Assembly (NCBI RefSeq): GCF_000383975.1
Contig: NZ_KB913017.1
Coordinates: 186,001-250,000 of the forward strand
DNA: 64,000 bases
Direction of reading: 5' to 3'
Source: Natronorubrum tibetense GA33
Lineage (GTDB): Archaea; Halobacteriota; Halobacteria; Halobacteriales; Natrialbaceae
How positions within the stretch are numbered: position 1 is the first letter of the stretch; every line of letters starts with the position of its first letter. The notes under the pieces were generated by a model, which saw only the letters and a program-made list of their open reading frames with translations, ran no database searches and was not told where the DNA came from. The position numbers and the translations under genes were made by a program. Of this stretch, positions 17,070 through 62,874 are shown in pieces.

Positions 17070-18032
17070 ATGACCGAGGAACAGGAGGCCGAGCTCGAGG
17101 AGCAGGCCGATGACGCCGACGCAGAAGGAGACGAGAGCGCCGAGGAAGCCGAGGGGCTTCAACACGGCGACTTCGTCGAGATCGACTACACCGCCTACAC
17201 CGCAGAGGGTGACCAGCTGGTCGACACGACCGACCCCGAAGTCGCCGAGGAGGAGGGTGTCGACGACCAAGGTCAGGAGTTCAAGCCGCGAACGATCGTG
17301 CTGGGTGAGGGCCACATCTTCGAGGGCGTCGAAGACGCACTCACCGGCAGCGAAACCGGTGACACCGGTAGCGTAACGATCCCCGCCGAGGAGGCCTTCG
17401 GCGAGCACGACCCCGACGACGTCCAGACCGTCAGCGCCGAGAAAATCGACGAGGACGACCGCTACCCCGGTGCGAACGTGCAGATCGACGGCCAACAGGG
17501 CTACATCAGCACGATCATCGGCGGTCGCGCCCGCGTCGACTTCAACCACCCGCTGGCCGGCGAGGACGTCGAGTACGAGTTCGAGATTCTCGAGGAAGTC
17601 GACGACCGCGAACAGCAGGCCGCCGGCCTGTTCGAGATGTACCTCGGGATGGAGCCCGAACTCTGGATCCAGACCGATGAAGTCGAAGAGGAAGTTCCCG
17701 TCGAGCCCGACGAGGACGACGAGGACGCCGAGCCCGAGTTCGAGACCGAGACCGTCGAGAAGGAGACGGTCTACCTCGAGGCCACGCCCCAGATGACCAT
17801 GAACCAGCAGTGGATGATGGGCAAACAGCAGATCGGCCAGCAGATCATCGACCAGATCGGTGTCGACCGCGTCATCGTCCAGGAGACCATCGACGGGATG
17901 GGCATGGGCGGAATGGGCGGCATGATGGGCGGTATGGGTGGCATGGGCGGCGGCGACATCGAGGAGGCCCTCGAAGACGCCGACGTCGACGCTGACGAAA
18001 TCGTCGAAGAGCTCGAAGGCGCCGAAGAGTAA
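17070..18032 (+). CDS. long FKBP-type peptidyl-prolyl isomerase (SlyD-like)
   Basis: A 320-residue FKBP starting at ATG 17070. An acidic N-terminal tail (residues 1-28) leads into the FKBP core (DFVEIDYTAYTAEGDQLVDT, then ILGEG-type flap VLGEGHIFEGVEDAL) with an insert-in-flap chaperone domain around AFGEHDPDD to GRARVDFNHPLAG. Residues about 170-320 are an unusual C-terminal extension: an acidic linker, then a Met/Gln stretch, then a run of Gly and Met, then an acidic helix. Expected role: cytosolic folding helper. The Met/Gly-rich segment could bind metal or client proteins (inference). A repeat element begins 26 bases after the stop. Confidence 0.93.
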   Translation: MTEEQEAELEEQADDADAEGDESAEEAEGLQHGDFVEIDYTAYTAEGDQLVDTTDPEVAEEEGVDDQGQEFKPRTIVLGEGHIFEGVEDALTGSETGDTGSVTIPAEEAFGEHDPDDVQTVSAEKIDEDDRYPGANVQIDGQQGYISTIIGGRARVDFNHPLAGEDVEYEFEILEEVDDREQQAAGLFEMYLGMEPELWIQTDEVEEEVPVEPDEDDEDAEPEFETETVEKETVYLEATPQMTMNQQWMMGKQQIGQQIIDQIGVDRVIVQETIDGMGMGGMGGMMGGMGGMGGGDIEEALEDADVDADEIVEELEGAEE

Positions 18033-18057: not shown

Positions 18058-18198
18058 TATAGTAACAACTGGAACTGGTTACACACCGATCGCACTATCC
18101 GCGGTTCTCGCTCACTCCGTACGCTCCGAACCGCTTACGCTCCGAACCGCGCGGCCGTCGTGCGATCGGGTGTGCACTGACTTCCAGTGGCTACTATA
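18058..18198. mobile_element. MITE-like inverted-repeat element, copy 1 (141 bp)
   Basis: The ends are inverted: the left end reads TATAGTAACAACTGGAA and the complement of the right end reads TATAGTAGCCACTGGAA. The similarity continues inward through a CACACC-GATCGCAC block on both sides for about 40 bases. The centre is a palindrome, GCGGTTC to GAACCGC, shared with copy 2. It has no coding capacity. Three more copies lie in the window. Confidence 0.75.
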
Positions 18199-18500
18199 TT
18201 TTCCCGCTCGAGCACCGGCTCCCGATCCGATCGGCACTCCGGGCACAGAGTCGAATCGGTTCGCGCCTTCACTCTCGCTTTCGTTGGACCCTGTCACAAC
18301 CTGAAATCGTTGGTTACTCGATAGCCGATTCTCATGTCGTCCAGTCAGATCGCACAACTCAGCGGCCCTGCTGAAGTAAGCCTCTTTTGTTCACGGAATA
18401 AACAATAAGTTGTTTCGTCGGTACCTGTAAGGTCTAATTACTTCAGTGACGAATACCTTGAGTTAATTATATTATCCTACTCGATCAAGGAACAGTCGCA
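18199..18500. other. non-coding gap with promoter of the small peptide gene
   Basis: About 300 bases without a convincing gene between repeat copy 1 and the 44-residue peptide gene. The last 140 bases are AT-rich and include ATTATATTAT at 18466-18475, 25 bases before the ATG at 18501 and a plausible TATA box. I see nothing else in it. Confidence 0.5.
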
Positions 18501-18635
18501 ATGTCCGAAAGCAAATCCCAGATCCGAACGTTCTTCGCCGAGCATCCGCGACTGATGGGCGTCCTGTTCGCAGCGTGCGTACTACTTTCACAGGCCGGCA
18601 CCGCCGTTGCCGGGAACGGTGGCGGAACGTACTGA
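18501..18635 (+). CDS. 44-residue membrane peptide, DUF7503-like
   Basis: Translation from ATG 18501 gives 44 residues: an N-terminal charged part (MSESKSQIRTFFAEHPRLM), one hydrophobic helix (GVLFAACVLLSQAGTAV) and a short Gly-rich tail ending AGNGGGTY. It resembles the haloarchaeal DUF7503 small proteins (name from memory). One membrane pass or an uncleaved signal is likely. It ends 22 bases from the 3' end of the convergent CHAT-protease gene and has its own AT-rich promoter. Whether it is a partner, substrate or unrelated neighbour of the protease is unknown. Confidence 0.75.
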   Translation: MSESKSQIRTFFAEHPRLMGVLFAACVLLSQAGTAVAGNGGGTY

Positions 18636-18657
18636 GAGTCGAGACAGCGTTCTTTTG

Positions 18658-20745
18658 TCACATGTAGCTAAACCGGTCGTCGGTCGACCAGCAGTGCTCA
18701 CCGTCGTACTCGACCGCGATCTCCTCGAGTCCTAAAAACCGAGCGAGTGCGTCTCCTGAGAGGTCGATCGGGGGTAGTTCCTTGCCCGCGAGATAGTGTC
18801 GATCGACGCCGTCGAGGTAGGGAATGTACTGGGCGCCGACGCCGCTGTCGACGTGGTAGAGCTGGAGGAAGAGCCGATAGCGCCCGTCGTCGATCGGTTC
18901 GATGCGACAGCTGTTCGGAACGATGCTTCCGGATTGTCCGACGGCCAGGCCACCGTCTCCGACGACGATGTACTGGTTGCCGACGAGTCGGTACGACCGC
19001 GCCATCGCGACCGCGGACCGAAGCGTGAACCCGTTGTTCAGGAGTCGGGCGACGAACTGTCCCACGGCGATCGCGTCCTGATTTCCGACCTCGCTGAGCG
19101 TGACGATGCCCCCGACGCCGCCGCTCTCGATCACTTGCGTTCCGATCTCGTACGATTGACAGCCGTTGATGAGAAAGGCGTCGACGCCGACATCCGCGAG
19201 GGTACTCGGGTCGAGCATGCCGTCGCGACAGACGAACGCGTCGTCCTCGACGTGGCCGACGTAGTGCAAGAAGTCGACGTCCTCGGCGAAGAGCCGCCGC
19301 AGTTCGTCGCCGCTGACGTTCCGATGGACGGTTGCGTCGAAGGGAAGTTCCTCGCGGTCGCCGTACAGGCCGTCGTCGGTCGCCTCGAGTTCGGCCGCCA
19401 TTCGCTCGTCGTTACAGACGATCGTTACCTCGACGCCGTCACCCGACGGGGTCCTCTCGAGTCCGTTCTCGAAGCCGGCTTGGAGGAGTTTGTTCGCGCC
19501 GATCGGGATCCCCTCGCCGAGCCACGCCCGCTCGAAGGCGTCGACCTCGGGGATCGAAACGTACGAATCGATTCCCCGGTCGGCCGCTGACTCGCCCTCT
19601 CCGGAGCGGGGAGTCGATCTGGTGAAAGCCTCGATCTCGCTCGGGATCGACGGCGCCGTAGCTGGCTCCGGATTCGTGGGCAGCGACCGAACGCTCGCGA
19701 GTTCGTAGGCCAGATACGGGAGCGCGGTCGCGTTCTCGGCAGCTGACGACGTGTACGTGACCAGCCGCCATCGGGGAACGAGATCCGCGACGGCGTCGAA
19801 CGGAATCGAGAGGGCCGTGGCGAGTCGGTCGGCCAGTGGCTGCTCGTAGAGGTCGTCGAACGCCAGTTCGAGGCGGTCCGCGACGCACTGGCGCTCGTAC
19901 AGTTCGACCGGATAGAACCCCTCCGTTCGGGTCACGCAGTCGATAAAAAAGACGTGCTTGAGAACGCGGTCGACCAGCCGATCGAACGTGTACTCGGGGC
20001 GGTCCAGCGAGTACTCGAAGCCGCGGTCGGTCTCGATTCGCGGCCGAGAACCCGTCTCGACCGTTGCGCCGAGATAGTAGCCGAGCGAGCAGATCGTATA
20101 GAGGGCCGATCGCTCCGGTGGAACGACGATCCTGACGCCCGTGTCGGGGGTCTCGAGTGCGTCAGGAATTCGAACGTCGTCGGCCAGTGCGAGCCGCGGC
20201 GGGTGACCCCGGAACGACGGCAGCGAGCGCTCGGGGCTGGTCGTCTTCAGCGCGGAGCCAAAGGTCGATACGGCCCGCGCCAGATCGTCCGGATCGGCGG
20301 TCGTCTCGACCGTGGTTGCGGGCCGTTCGTGGCGCGAACGCGCACCCAGTCGGACGGTCGTCGCCTCGCCGAAGTGAAACGCCAGGCGGTCGTCGGACGA
20401 CGCGATGGTCAACTCGCCGTGGACGCGAACGTAGAGTTTGATCGGCGCCATCAACTCGACGAGGTACGTCCCGTCGGGCAGCGTTTCGTAGGCGTAGTGT
20501 TCGGTCTCGAGCAGCATCTTCCCCTCCGGATCGCGAACGTACGTCGGAACGACGAAGGGGAGGACCAGTCGTTCGGTCGTCACCGCGACAGCGGCGTCGA
20601 CCGGGAAGTAGAAGTCGTCCGTTTCGACCGCGGTCGGCGTGACCCGTTCCGACAGCCGGATCGGGCACTGTCGGTTCTCGATCGGATCGACGACCGTGAG
20701 TCCCGGTCTGTCGTCGGCCGGCTGAAACGTCGGTGTCAGTGTCAT
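18658..20745 (-). CDS. CHAT-domain (caspase-like) cysteine protease
   Basis: A 695-residue protein. The C-terminal region has the CHAT peptidase layout: the His motif LHYVGH (His498) after a hydrophobic strand, then FLINGCQSYE (Cys529), then GGVGGIVTLSEV and QDAIAVGQFVARLLNNGFTLRSAVAMAR, which match the GxxxVIG...D..A..F...L..G.S...A..AR pattern that follows the cysteine in CHAT proteins. The N-terminal 350 residues contain beta-rich segments and no domain I recognise. There are no membrane helices or signal. CHAT proteases elsewhere act in regulated proteolysis and cell-death or defence pathways. The target here is unknown. The next gene upstream (HalOD1/RecA-like) lies 87 bases away on the same strand. 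Confidence 0.85.
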   Translation of the reverse strand: MTLTPTFQPADDRPGLTVVDPIENRQCPIRLSERVTPTAVETDDFYFPVDAAVAVTTERLVLPFVVPTYVRDPEGKMLLETEHYAYETLPDGTYLVELMAPIKLYVRVHGELTIASSDDRLAFHFGEATTVRLGARSRHERPATTVETTADPDDLARAVSTFGSALKTTSPERSLPSFRGHPPRLALADDVRIPDALETPDTGVRIVVPPERSALYTICSLGYYLGATVETGSRPRIETDRGFEYSLDRPEYTFDRLVDRVLKHVFFIDCVTRTEGFYPVELYERQCVADRLELAFDDLYEQPLADRLATALSIPFDAVADLVPRWRLVTYTSSAAENATALPYLAYELASVRSLPTNPEPATAPSIPSEIEAFTRSTPRSGEGESAADRGIDSYVSIPEVDAFERAWLGEGIPIGANKLLQAGFENGLERTPSGDGVEVTIVCNDERMAAELEATDDGLYGDREELPFDATVHRNVSGDELRRLFAEDVDFLHYVGHVEDDAFVCRDGMLDPSTLADVGVDAFLINGCQSYEIGTQVIESGGVGGIVTLSEVGNQDAIAVGQFVARLLNNGFTLRSAVAMARSYRLVGNQYIVVGDGGLAVGQSGSIVPNSCRIEPIDDGRYRLFLQLYHVDSGVGAQYIPYLDGVDRHYLAGKELPPIDLSGDALARFLGLEEIAVEYDGEHCWSTDDRFSYM

Positions 20746-20832
20746 TCGTCGAGGATCGTCGTCTCGTCGGCTTCGGATCGTTCGTTCCGGTCGATCAGCG
20801 ACCGTCGACGGGCCGGTCGGGTCGTCACGTTG

Positions 20833-22101
20833 CTACCGCGAGTCCCGCAACGCGAACCAGTCGGTCGTGTAGTTGCTCTCGTGGAGGTGCCAGCGCTGTT
20901 CGGCGCCGGACTCCCCGACACGGAGTTCAACCGTCGCGTCGAACAGTGCCTCGAGTTGCCGAACAGTCTTCGACGATCGCTCGATCGGAAGGACGTAGTG
21001 TCCCAGCGCTGAGACCGCTTTGACCGACTGGCAGACGGACTCGAGAAACCGCTCGGTCACCTCGACGTCTCGGTCTTCGACGATCGGGCGCAACGAGTCG
21101 ACGCAGAGACGGATTGTAGCTGGGTTCGGCTCAGTTTCGGCTGCCGTGATCATCCGGAGCGCCGAATCGATGGCGTCCTCGAGACCGTCGATGTCGTCGG
21201 GTTCGGCGGCGATTCTGGGCGTCGGACCGATATCAACAGTGGAATGGCTGCCCACAGCAGACCGTGCGGTTGCCGCGTAGTCGACGACCTGCGCCGTCGA
21301 TGCGTCTTCGGGGGAGAGTCGCGTGTAGACGACGTCGATATCGCGATCGAGCAGGGCGAACAGGCGGCGTCGGTCGCGTCCTCGGTCGCCCATGAGGCTG
21401 GTGCTCGCGACGTCGACGAGGTCGTCCGGGACGGCACCGACGACCAGTACGTTGCCCCCGACTCGTTTCAGTCGCCTGAGCGTCGAGCCGGCAGCGATCG
21501 TTCCGTCCGGGCGCACGACGACATCGTATCCGAGCGTCGAGAGCCCGACGGTCGCGCCCGACCGCGGTGCGCCGTTCCGTCGGCGTCCGTTGAGTCGTTC
21601 GACAGCGTCGAGATCGATGGTGTCCGCAATCGCCGACCGGATGTACGCCCGATCGTGATCGGTCTGCGCGGCGACCGCCGAGACGACCCGAACCGTTGTG
21701 TCGTTCTCACGGGCGACGTCGACGTCGGATACGTGGGACCAGTCGTCGATCGCCGGCAGTTCGTCCGAGTCGGAGAGAGTCACTCGGCCGTCGGCGGTCA
21801 TCCGAACACGCTGGTTCGCGTAGGAAAACGTGACAACCGGCCACGCGCCGCGATTCGACTGGTCGCCGCTCTCGAGGAGGTCGTCGAGCGCGTCCGGATC
21901 GACGGTCTCGTTCAACTGCGGGAGTTCCATCGGTGAGACGCCGGTTTCGTCCGCGACCCGTTTCACCACCGCCACACCGGACCGCATCTGCACTCCCCCG
22001 TCCATAACCCGGCGACGGGAGAACTGGTCCCTCCCGCCCCGAGAGGTATCCTTCGTCATCTGGATCTGCGTAGGCGTGGCGCGTACGAATAGTTCGTGCA
22101 T
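20833..22101 (-). CDS. HalOD1 plus DUF7504-like (degenerate RecA fold) protein
   Basis: A 422-residue protein. A HalOD1 output domain covers residues about 40-110 (SGVAVVKRVADETGVSPMEL, then a VTFSYANQRVRMTADG-type strand pair). A RecA/KaiC-like region follows from about residue 180 (NVLVVGAVPDDLVDVASTSL in place of a P-loop, IRLCVDSLRPIVE in the Walker B position). No GKT/GKS is present, so ATP binding is doubtful. The combination resembles the haloarchaeal DUF7504 family. Alternative starts are ATG 22059 and 22005. It is probably co-transcribed with the CHAT-protease gene, which suggests it controls or targets the protease (inference). Confidence 0.75.
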   Translation of the reverse strand: MHELFVRATPTQIQMTKDTSRGGRDQFSRRRVMDGGVQMRSGVAVVKRVADETGVSPMELPQLNETVDPDALDDLLESGDQSNRGAWPVVTFSYANQRVRMTADGRVTLSDSDELPAIDDWSHVSDVDVARENDTTVRVVSAVAAQTDHDRAYIRSAIADTIDLDAVERLNGRRRNGAPRSGATVGLSTLGYDVVVRPDGTIAAGSTLRRLKRVGGNVLVVGAVPDDLVDVASTSLMGDRGRDRRRLFALLDRDIDVVYTRLSPEDASTAQVVDYAATARSAVGSHSTVDIGPTPRIAAEPDDIDGLEDAIDSALRMITAAETEPNPATIRLCVDSLRPIVEDRDVEVTERFLESVCQSVKAVSALGHYVLPIERSSKTVRQLEALFDATVELRVGESGAEQRWHLHESNYTTDWFALRDSR

Positions 22102-22103
22102 AG

Positions 22104-22129
22104 TTTCACGGAGAACATGAACCGTGAAA
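22104..22129. promoter_or_regulatory. perfect palindrome between divergent genes
   Basis: TTTCACGG, 10 bases, then CCGTGAAA forms a perfect 8-base inverted repeat. It lies 2 bases before the start codon of the HalOD1/RecA-like gene and 120 bases before the winged-helix gene on the other strand. Position and symmetry fit an operator for a dimeric regulator, possibly the adjacent winged-helix protein. Confidence 0.5.
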
Positions 22130-22248
22130 ATTAGGAAACGGGTGAAACGTACTGTACGTCACGTCGTTTCGTCTCTTTTCCTTTCGGATACGTCAATTCG
22201 GTATTCTCCTAGTACGTTTATTACCGTCCCGGGACTGGCTACGAATAT

Positions 22249-22716
22249 ATGGTCGATTTCAGCCCGGAGGATACGGGCGGGCGATCCTCGACGCGTGACC
22301 GCCGCTTCGACCCCCCATCCCGGTCCGAACGCGGGTCGCCGATCGACGAGTTGCTCGTCCTCCTCAGTCATCAGCGCCGGCGCGACGTGCTGTACTACCT
22401 CAGCGATCATGAGGTCGCCAGTCTCGAGTCGCTGGCGGCGACGATCGCCGCGAACGAAGCGGGGGTGGCTGCGGAACGAGTCTCCGCCGAGCGGCGCGAG
22501 TCCGTCCTCATCGATCTCTACCACAACCACCTGCCGAAACTGACGGATCGAAAGCTGGTCGAGTACGACCACCGTAGCGGGGCAATCAGGTGGTCTTCGC
22601 CACCGGCGCTGTTCGACGAACTCCTCGAGTGCTGTTACTCCCTCGAGTCGACCGACGGGTCAGCGACGGATGACGGGTCGGAGACGGACGACGAGTCCGA
22701 CACGAACGGCACCTGA
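22249..22716 (+). CDS. winged-helix DNA-binding protein, DUF7344-like
   Basis: A 155-residue protein. Residues about 30-120 form an ArsR-like winged helix of the haloarchaeal DUF7344 type: IDELLVLLSHQRRRDVLYYL (helix 1), the ASLESLAATIAANEAG helix-turn-helix region, LYHNHLPKLTDRKLVEYDHR (recognition helix into the wing). The N-terminal 30 residues and the C-terminal Asp/Ser/Thr tail are low complexity. It is divergent from the HalOD1/RecA-like gene, with a perfect palindrome in the shared promoter region, and is the natural candidate to regulate the island. Confidence 0.82.
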   Translation: MVDFSPEDTGGRSSTRDRRFDPPSRSERGSPIDELLVLLSHQRRRDVLYYLSDHEVASLESLAATIAANEAGVAAERVSAERRESVLIDLYHNHLPKLTDRKLVEYDHRSGAIRWSSPPALFDELLECCYSLESTDGSATDDGSETDDESDTNGT

Positions 22717-22791
22717 CGACCGCTGTCGCCGGCCCGCTCGCTCGGCAGGTACGGCCCAATAGCGACCGGGAGGTGTCCGCGTTAGGTCTAC

Positions 22792-23418
22792 TCAGGCGAT
22801 ATCCCGGCTCGTGTCGATCGCCACCTCTTCGGTCAACTCGAGTTTGATCGCCTCGGTCGGCTGGGCGCCGCCGCGGAACTTGGGAATCGTGAGGTGATTC
22901 TCGAGTTCGCTGCCGGCCGTCTTGGTCCGGAGATGGAAAACGGCGTCGGCGGCGTGGATCGTCCGCGTCCGCCCGTTGGGGACATCGGTGCCTTCCAGAC
23001 AGTGTAACACTGCGATCGAACCGGTCTCGAGCATCTGTGACTTGAGTTCGTTGAGAAAGGTGACGTACTCGTCGGTGTCGGCGTGTTCCAAAACGTCTAT
23101 CGTGTCGATGATGAGATTTGCCCCGTCGGGGAGTGCACCGATGAGACGGGTCGCCTCCTCGAGCGGGTCGTCGCTGGTGACGTGTCGGACGGTCGGACTG
23201 CCGACCTCGGAGGGTGAGGCCTCGATCGCGTGACGGACGGCGTCGTCCGATCGCTCGGTCGAGAGATACAGGGTGCCGCGGGCGGCCGTGAGTTCGTAGA
23301 GGAGCAGCTCCGATTGGCTGGCCGGCTGGGCGGTGTATGCGACGATACACCCCGGCGGTAACCCGCCGTCGAGTTTCCGATCCAGCACGTCGATCCCGGT
23401 ATCCAGTCGACCGACCAT
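22792..23418 (-). CDS. KaiC/RAD55-like protein with degenerate P-loop
   Basis: A 208-residue RecA-fold protein from ATG 23418. It opens with MVGRLDTGIDVLDRKLDGGL, the classical KaiC/RAD55 lead-in. The following Walker A position reads AYTAQPASQSELL, lacking the Gly-Lys-Thr, while the Walker B-like strand is intact (ANLIIDTIDVLE). So it looks like a non-hydrolysing sensor or scaffold of the haloarchaeal HTR-like RAD55 group. It is the last gene of the island before repeat copy 2 (85 bases upstream of its start) and is transcribed away from it. Confidence 0.8.
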   Translation of the reverse strand: MVGRLDTGIDVLDRKLDGGLPPGCIVAYTAQPASQSELLLYELTAARGTLYLSTERSDDAVRHAIEASPSEVGSPTVRHVTSDDPLEEATRLIGALPDGANLIIDTIDVLEHADTDEYVTFLNELKSQMLETGSIAVLHCLEGTDVPNGRTRTIHAADAVFHLRTKTAGSELENHLTIPKFRGGAQPTEAIKLELTEEVAIDTSRDIA

Positions 23419-23502
23419 ACAATTGTGACCAGTAGCCACAGCGCCCGCATAACTCTTTGGCTTCGAATTAGTTCTTAGAAACAAATCAGTTTGTCCTGTA
23501 AA

Positions 23503-23823
23503 TATAGTAGCCACTGAAAGGCAATGCGCGCCTGATCGCACGATGGCAGCGCGGTTCGGAGCGAACGAAGTGAGCGAGAACCGCGGGAATGCGAATACGC
23601 GGGATCAAAGATCTCGCGGACCATGCGAACGAGCAGTGCGCGGCGCTACGCGCCGCGACTGCCGAGACGAGCGCGGAACCGAAGGTTCCGCGAGCAGTCG
23701 AACGGGTGCGTGGCACCCGTGAGACGACAGCGGGGCCGTCTCGCAGCGCCCGTGAGCAGACGATGAGCCCTGCGAGCCGTGAGCTGTGCGATCAGTGTGT
23801 AAATTGTTTCAGTTGTTACTATA
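23503..23823. mobile_element. MITE-like inverted-repeat element, copy 2 (321 bp)
   Basis: Left end TATAGTAGCCACTGAAA, right end (complement) TATAGTAACAACTGAAA. Near the left end is an inner palindrome (GCGGTTC...GAACCGC) that is the reverse complement of the core of copy 1, followed by several smaller hairpins such as GGCGCTACGCGCC and GGTGCGTGGCACC. No coding potential. It separates the promoter of the KaiC-like gene from pyrB. Together with copy 1 it brackets the CHAT island. Confidence 0.75.
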
Positions 23824-24011: not shown

Positions 24012-24941
24012 ATGCGACACGATCACCTCATCACGAGCAAACAACTCTCGCGGGCGGACATCGAGACCGTCCTCGACCGGGCGGCCGAAATCGACGCCGA
24101 TCCGTCGGCCGTCGCCGACCGTCACGCGAACCGATTGCTCGGCCTGCTCTTTTTCGAACCGAGTACGCGGACGAAGATGAGCTTCGAAACCGCGATGAAA
24201 CGCCTCGGCGGCGACGTCGTCGACATGGGTTCGGTCGAATCCTCGAGCGTCAAAAAAGGCGAGACGCTCGCCGACACCGTCCGAGTCATCGAGGGCTACG
24301 CCGACGCGCTCGTCTTGCGCCACCCCAAGCAGGGCGCGGCGACGATGGCCAGCGAGTTCGTCGACATCCCGCTGCTGAACGCCGGCGACGGCGCGGGCCA
24401 CCACCCCACGCAGACGCTGCTCGACCTCTACACGATCCGCGAGAACGCCGGGCTCGACGACCTCACCATCGGCGTCATGGGCGATTTAAAGTACGGTCGG
24501 ACCGTCCACTCGCTGGCCTACGCGCTGACGAACTTCGACGCGCGCCAGCACTTCGTCAGCCCCGAGAGCCTCCAGTTGCCTCGCGAGGTCGTCTACGACC
24601 TCCATCAGGCCGACGGCGCCGGCATCCGCGAACACGACTCGCTCGAGGAGGTCCTCCCCTCGCTCGACGTCCTCTACGTCACCCGCATCCAGCGCGAGCG
24701 GTTCCCGGACGAACAGGAGTACCAGAAAGTCGCCGGCGAGTACCAGATTGACATGGAGACGCTCGAGGCCGCAAGCGACGACCTGACCATCATGCATCCG
24801 CTGCCGCGGGTCGACGAAATCGCGCCGACAATCGACGAGACCGAGTACGCGGCCTACTTCGAGCAGGCGCACAACGGGGTGCCGGTACGGATGGCGCTGC
24901 TCGATCTGTTCCTGCAAGACGGAGGTGATGGCGATGAGTAA
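24012..24941 (+). CDS. pyrB: aspartate carbamoyltransferase catalytic subunit
   Basis: A 309-residue ATCase catalytic chain, catalysing carbamoyl phosphate plus aspartate to carbamoyl-aspartate in pyrimidine synthesis. The carbamoyl-phosphate site is [13 protein letters not shown]. Other signatures are [25 protein letters not shown] (His/Gln active-site loop) and [10 protein letters not shown] chose ATG 24012 because [18 protein letters not shown] is the family start, and the frame upstream runs through the repeat element. It overlaps pyrI by 8 bases, so the two subunits are translationally coupled. Confidence 0.96.
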
Positions 24942-25664: not shown

Positions 25665-25748
25665 TATAGTAGCCACTGAACGTCACTGCATATCTGACCG
25701 CACGACCGCTGTGCGATCAGCGTGTACATCGTTTCAGTTGGTACTATC
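25665..25748. mobile_element. MITE-like inverted-repeat element, copy 3 (84 bp)
   Basis: Short form. Left end TATAGTAGCCACTGAA; the right-end complement is GATAGTACCAACTGAAA. The interior has CCGCAC and GTGCGATC halves flanking a small centre, without the long palindromic core of copies 1 and 2. It begins 2 bases after the stop of the 39-residue gene. Confidence 0.7.
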
Positions 25749-62790: not shown

Positions 62791-62874
62791 TATCGTAGCA
62801 ACTGAAAGACAATGCACACCCGACCGCAGAACGGCGTTGCGATCGATGTGCACACCGTTTCAGTTGTTACTATA
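62791..62874. mobile_element. MITE-like inverted-repeat element, copy 4 (84 bp)
   Basis: Left end TATCGTAGCAACTGAAAG, right-end complement TATAGTAACAACTGAAAC. The interior CACACCCGACCGCA and TGCGATCGATGTGCACACC halves match copies 1 and 3. Same length as copy 3 (84 bp), so both are the minimal form of the element. It lies between a HAD gene start and the end of the SHOCT gene. Confidence 0.7.

Follow-up and report, generated by a model that had tools for sequence, protein, structure and literature searches.

Gene content of the interval between FKBP and pyrB

The stretch of DNA analysed here (the window: 64,000 nucleotides, contig C1:186001-250000 of a Natronorubrum genome) contains five genes between the FKBP gene and pyrB (Table 1), all of which had been predicted from the sequence and all of which were recovered at their expected positions, the CHAT gene by its fold and the others by Pfam. 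The original prediction read the five genes as a single accessory island bracketed and possibly mobilized by two inverted-repeat elements, and these repeats are likewise present, with inverted-complementary arms of 36-64 bp at 87-94%.

Table 1. Genes and repeat elements of the FKBP-pyrB region and further repeat copies, in window coordinates
Feature	Position	Strand	Basis or remark
FKBP gene	about 17070-18032		left flank of the five-gene interval
MITE-like inverted-repeat element	18058-18198		no insertion at the corresponding position in N. texcoconense
DUF7503 membrane peptide, 44 aa	18501-18635	+	Pfam, 62.3 bits (cut-off 27)
CHAT cysteine protease, 695 aa	18658-20745	-	fold, not Pfam
HalOD1(x2)-DUF7504	20833-22101	-	Pfam
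DUF7344 winged-helix protein	22249-22716	+	Pfam, 81.6 bits
DUF7125 KaiC-like pseudo-ATPase	22792-23418	-	Pfam DUF7125/KaiC; core gene, not an island member
Long member of the same inverted-repeat family	23503-23823		between DUF7125 and pyrB; absent in N. texcoconense
pyrB gene	24012-24941		right flank of the five-gene interval
Further inverted-repeat copy, 76-bp type	25665-25748		ends TATAGTAGC...; not flanking the island
Further inverted-repeat copy, 76-bp type	62791-62874		ends TATAGTAGC...; not flanking the island

The neighbourhood of pyrB was read in all ten Natronorubrum genomes, in each of which the gene was located. The order metK-CYTH-FKBP-DUF7125-pyrB-pyrI is found without the cassette in all eight of the other congeners, and the site is filled only in the present species and in N. 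texcoconense. Across the genus the FKBP-pyrB interval thus varies in the presence of the cassette, as had been expected, but is constant in the presence of DUF7125, and since all ten members examined have DUF7125 in that interval, this KaiC-like gene is a core gene that marks the right-hand boundary of the island instead of belonging to it. The predicted accessory block is borne out, the site being empty in eight of the ten Natronorubrum genomes, but it has four genes and not five: the island consists of the genes for DUF7503, CHAT, HalOD1-DUF7504 and DUF7344 (18501-22716). The gap between FKBP and DUF7125 in the empty sites measures 105-149 bp in five genomes, 175-178 bp in two and 940 bp in one (G104), where it holds different sequence that includes the apparent end of a halocyanin-type gene; this other content suggests that insertions may be tolerated here.

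At the flanking genes the two carriers are closest to one another (pyrB 99% versus 87-93%), which makes a single acquisition the simplest history, and we infer that the cassette was acquired once, between FKBP and DUF7125, by the common ancestor of the present species and N. texcoconense. An ancestral presence of the cassette here, followed by independent losses in the eight congeners that lack it, would be compatible with the presence and absence pattern taken alone, but this history is very improbable in view of the proximity of the two carriers at the flanking genes and of the location of the next nearest CHAT orthologues, which are found in Natronococcus at a different locus. The island junctions show neither direct repeats nor an att site or a target duplication. 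Elsewhere in the window's genome (C1:1807754-1808650) there is a second carbamoyltransferase-like match, 33% to pyrB, that contains one in-frame TGA; the homologues listed in the nine congeners have no in-frame TGA.

The repeats belong to a family of which the genome has dozens of copies (68 BLAST matches) and the window four. Its members have the ends GTA[AG]C[AC]ACTG, are flanked by TATA on either side and commonly take a 76-bp form; the element at 18058-18198 ends in TATAGTA...TACTATA. Like MITEs, the members are short, have inverted-repeat ends and TATA flanks and occur in many copies, and terminal inverted repeats, copy number, TATA flanks, empty sites and absence of coding capacity all agree with a MITE-like assignment, the TATA flanks being ambiguous between a target duplication and a part of the element ends. 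The alignment with N. texcoconense shows that this species lacks both repeats, with clean breakpoints (a clean ATATA at the right-hand junction). Because the repeats are absent from this species and their family is dispersed, their bracketing of the island is coincidental, and, judging from the aligned sequences, the two are later insertions of small mobile elements unrelated to the cassette. The view that they mobilized a five-gene island draws on the presence of two related repeats in inverted orientation, one on each side, but almost no credence can be given to it, since the closest island-bearing species carries the same cassette without them, the right-hand repeat is on the far side of the core gene DUF7125 and consequently does not border the island, and the dispersed family has two more copies in the window. 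The comparison with N. texcoconense and the core status of DUF7125 together rule out the repeats as island borders at this locus.

Recurrence of the cassette in haloarchaea

The loci of the 20 nearest CHAT homologues, which come from N. texcoconense and from other genera, contain all four genes in 19 cases, and in those 19 the order and orientation are identical: DUF7344 is divergent from HalOD1-DUF7504, which is followed by CHAT and then by a convergent DUF7503. In the other genera the flanking genes differ, which places the cassette at unrelated sites. The expectation that the five families would be found together elsewhere therefore holds for CHAT, HalOD1-DUF7504, the winged-helix protein and the small membrane peptide, and fails for the KaiC-like gene. 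A wider survey covered 80 named CHAT loci, which were taken as the query's best matches instead of being sampled at random; in it DUF7503 lies tail-to-tail with CHAT, 3-173 bp from the CHAT end, at 71 of the 80 loci, DUF7504 is directly upstream of CHAT and co-directional at 47, and the full set with a divergent DUF7344 is present at 17. Some of the Haladaptatus copies in this survey are on plasmids. Clustering of the neighbouring proteins revealed no further partner in common beyond local synteny, the four genes being the sole recurrent partners.

The 84 sequences of a CHAT tree include 21 from four-gene loci, every one of which belongs to a single supported group of 34 that spans Natrialbaceae and Haladaptataceae. 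The DUF7504 proteins associated with this group mostly carry one or two HalOD1 domains, while those of the other group consist of DUF7504 alone, and the window's own genome has a second CHAT unit of this stand-alone type. The distribution of the sequences suggests that the four genes form a transferable cassette, an accessory HalOD1-bearing version of a DUF7504-CHAT-DUF7503 unit which is widespread in the order. CHAT is present in all 125 genomes examined from the window's haloarchaeal family; across the order, 249 of 293 genomes have DUF7503, usually as one or two copies. The core triad also occurs in Haloferax species (two loci, L178 and L186), and the control genome of H. volcanii contains DUF7503 and DUF7504.

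The linkage between DUF7503 and CHAT is tight. In the window's family, among genomes with CHAT coordinates available for comparison, a CHAT gene lies tail-to-tail with 33 of 34 DUF7503 copies; the eight genomes taken from other families, several with expanded copy numbers, have CHAT next to 43 of 51 copies (about 0.02 would be expected by chance), so that a CHAT gene adjoins 76 of the 85 copies checked in both sets. The dependence is not symmetrical, and the 24 of 67 CHAT genes in the eight expanded genomes that have no DUF7503 partner imply that the peptide cannot be the sole CHAT substrate. Five of the eight unpaired DUF7503 copies come from one genome (G278:C1, at 777423, 1801088, 1929186, 2249148 and 2738757), in which the DUF7503-like matches are closely similar and the three examined sit in a dispersed repeat of about 170-290 bp. 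In another genome (G286:C1:1706069-1708003) a CHAT gene broken by stops has a truncated DUF7503 match beside it, which gives the impression of a pair in joint decay.

Predicted properties of the cassette proteins

The assignment of the 695-aa protein as a CHAT protease was originally made from His/Cys motifs, and it is upheld by fold matches and by retention of the His498/Cys529 dyad in 80 of 80 relatives. The protein has no significant profile match, no CHAT profile of Pfam or NCBIfam matches it up to E=1, and no sequence relatives of it were found in the PDB. Its AlphaFold model (mean pLDDT 74.8) has a beta-rich N-terminal domain, a middle domain, a disordered linker at approximately 357-436 and the CHAT domain at approximately 437-603. 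The top structure matches from Foldseek and VIA are SAVED-CHAT (8tl0), the TPR-CHAT of Craspase (7y85; VIA Z 13.2 over 147 residues, rmsd 2.5) and separase (5fc2), obtained with whole-protein models as queries, a procedure that barely probes the N-terminal half. On fold and motifs, the protein is thus a putative CHAT protease of clan CD with predicted activity.

DUF7503 is predicted to be a single-span membrane peptide in which an [HN]-P-[RK] motif precedes the hydrophobic segment and a glutamine lies near the end of that segment. In 74 DUF7503 peptides Pro16 is invariant, position 15 is His or Asn and position 17 is Arg or Lys, so that the motif is present in 74 of 74; Gln31 is 97% conserved, and the median best 19-residue hydropathy of the segment is 1.66. 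In comparison with N. texcoconense the peptide has a dN/dS of 0.04, close to the 0.03 of pyrB, which indicates strong purifying selection. Arg or Lys at P1 is common for clan CD proteases. The motif could alternatively be a positive-inside or helix-capping signal.

The HalOD1-DUF7504 protein has two output-type HalOD1 domains fused to a domain with a RecA fold, whose model (pLDDT 81.3) matches KaiC with a Z of 16.7 and an rmsd of 2.7 over 179 residues; sequence matches to it in the PDB are insignificant. The motif check agrees with the prediction that both RecA-like proteins of the interval lack a Walker A motif, and in the case of HalOD1-DUF7504 the P-loop is also absent from 16 relatives. 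A RecA fold that lacks this motif is referred to here as a pseudo-KaiC domain, and ATP hydrolysis is not expected of it. The HalOD1-DUF7504 gene is the fastest-evolving (dN/dS 0.41 versus N. texcoconense). Its first codons (22059-22101) are conserved as DNA and are broken by stops in some relatives, and comparison of the reading frames suggests that the true start may be an internal ATG at about 22059. DUF7344 is transcribed divergently from this gene, and the divergent promoter contains a perfect inverted repeat, TTTCACGG-N10-CCGTGAAA (22104-22129), which was rejected as a conserved operator because it is not kept in relatives, even in N. texcoconense.

Proposed working of the cassette and comparison with known systems

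The explanation that we consider best, with a probability of roughly 0.45, is that the locus is a once-acquired signalling cassette in which a HalOD1/pseudo-KaiC regulator gates a CHAT protease that works on or through DUF7503 at the membrane. A signal would be received by the two HalOD1 copies, and the pseudo-KaiC domain to which they are fused would change how it contacts CHAT, the product of the next gene downstream; once freed, the protease would act on DUF7503 on the cytoplasmic side of the membrane, with [HN]-P-[RK] as the probable site, or DUF7503 would instead tether it there, and the outcome would be a change in the state of the membrane or envelope. The divergent winged-helix protein DUF7344 would set the expression of the cassette.

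Two other accounts share the same components and differ in the role assigned to the peptide. If DUF7503 were a membrane anchor or an inhibitor of CHAT, with protease targets elsewhere such as regulators or envelope proteins, then the one-sided association in which almost all DUF7503 copies sit next to CHAT but some CHAT genes lack DUF7503 would be that of a dependent adaptor or inhibitor, and the convergent gene order, in which the two genes are not co-transcribed, also fits; a partner that is not cleaved leaves the invariant [HN]P[RK] by itself unexplained, and we regard this account as rather doubtful. By analogy with gasdermins activated by CHAT proteases or caspases, whose logic is comparable, the pairing of a caspase-type protease with a small membrane peptide could instead serve regulated cell death or abortive infection, CHAT releasing or activating DUF7503 as a membrane-permeabilizing peptide. 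The rapid evolution of the regulator gene, the multiplication of accessory copies in some genomes and the plasmid copies in Haladaptatus are consistent with such a role, which nevertheless appears somewhat unlikely, because a peptide held in one or two copies by most genomes of the order resembles a housekeeping or stress function and because the search for defence associations gave little. PADLOC matched none of the five proteins; no gasdermin or known defence partner is present in the operon; PADLOC and Pfam scans of ten neighbours found no convincing defence island, since a single ATPase had a candidate-defence match, PDC-S27, and HTH regulators resembled Csa3/CasR types weakly; and no match was found in viral contigs. 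The prevalence of DUF7503 in the order and of CHAT in the family favours a general stress or envelope role over pure defence, and the sequence distribution argues for accessory copies having been added to that role by transfer.

The preferred reading, a regulator-gated protease acting on or through the peptide, concerns parts that are known families and a combination that is undescribed as far as checked: the literature search found no paper mentioning DUF7503, DUF7504, DUF7344 or DUF7125 and none joining CHAT domains with haloarchaea. The importance of the locus lies in a micro-peptide that almost never occurs without CHAT and in a pseudo-KaiC regulator that adjoins a CHAT whose dyad is intact. 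Archaea were said to lack caspase homologues, and extracts of H. volcanii have strong caspase-like activity for which no gene homologue was known (PMC3615174). The CHAT proteins of DUF7504-CHAT-DUF7503 units could conceivably be an unrecognized haloarchaeal caspase system, with DUF7503 as dedicated substrate or effector, and the source of all or part of this activity; we consider this improbable, and the link is speculative but testable, since a genetic model is available.

A precedent for the proposed gating is the type III-E CRISPR system Craspase, in which a CHAT protease gated by its partner cuts a co-encoded protein once (PMC10028731). TPR-CHAT/Csx29 of Craspase shares the CHAT domain and its His/Cys dyad with the cassette protein, and in both a partner would control the protease and its substrate would be a protein encoded alongside it, but the cassette CHAT is only about 14% identical and has neither TPR nor a CRISPR effector, the partner being HalOD1-pseudo-KaiC and the small co-encoded protein a membrane peptide. 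SAVED-CHAT/CalpL-like proteases, which provide the best Foldseek match, likewise couple a sensor to a CHAT protease, but the cassette showed no SAVED domain, and its regulator, HalOD1-DUF7504, is encoded as a protein of its own. Separase and the caspases have the clan CD catalytic fold in common with the cassette CHAT, whose architecture is archaeal and whose N-terminal half is unrelated to theirs. The HalOD1-DUF7504 protein scores 95.6 bits (cut-off 70) against the NCBIfam model for DdfA, the disk-determining factor of Haloferax volcanii (HVO_2176), for which a HalOD1 domain and proximity to sph3/rdfA have been described, whereas the window protein has two HalOD1 domains fused to DUF7504 and lies beside CHAT and DUF7344. 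The three cassette proteins other than CHAT and the core DUF7125 protein are members, by curated cut-offs, of the Pfam families DUF7503, DUF7504, DUF7344 and DUF7125, which are families of unknown function and for which the present analysis supplies functional hypotheses.
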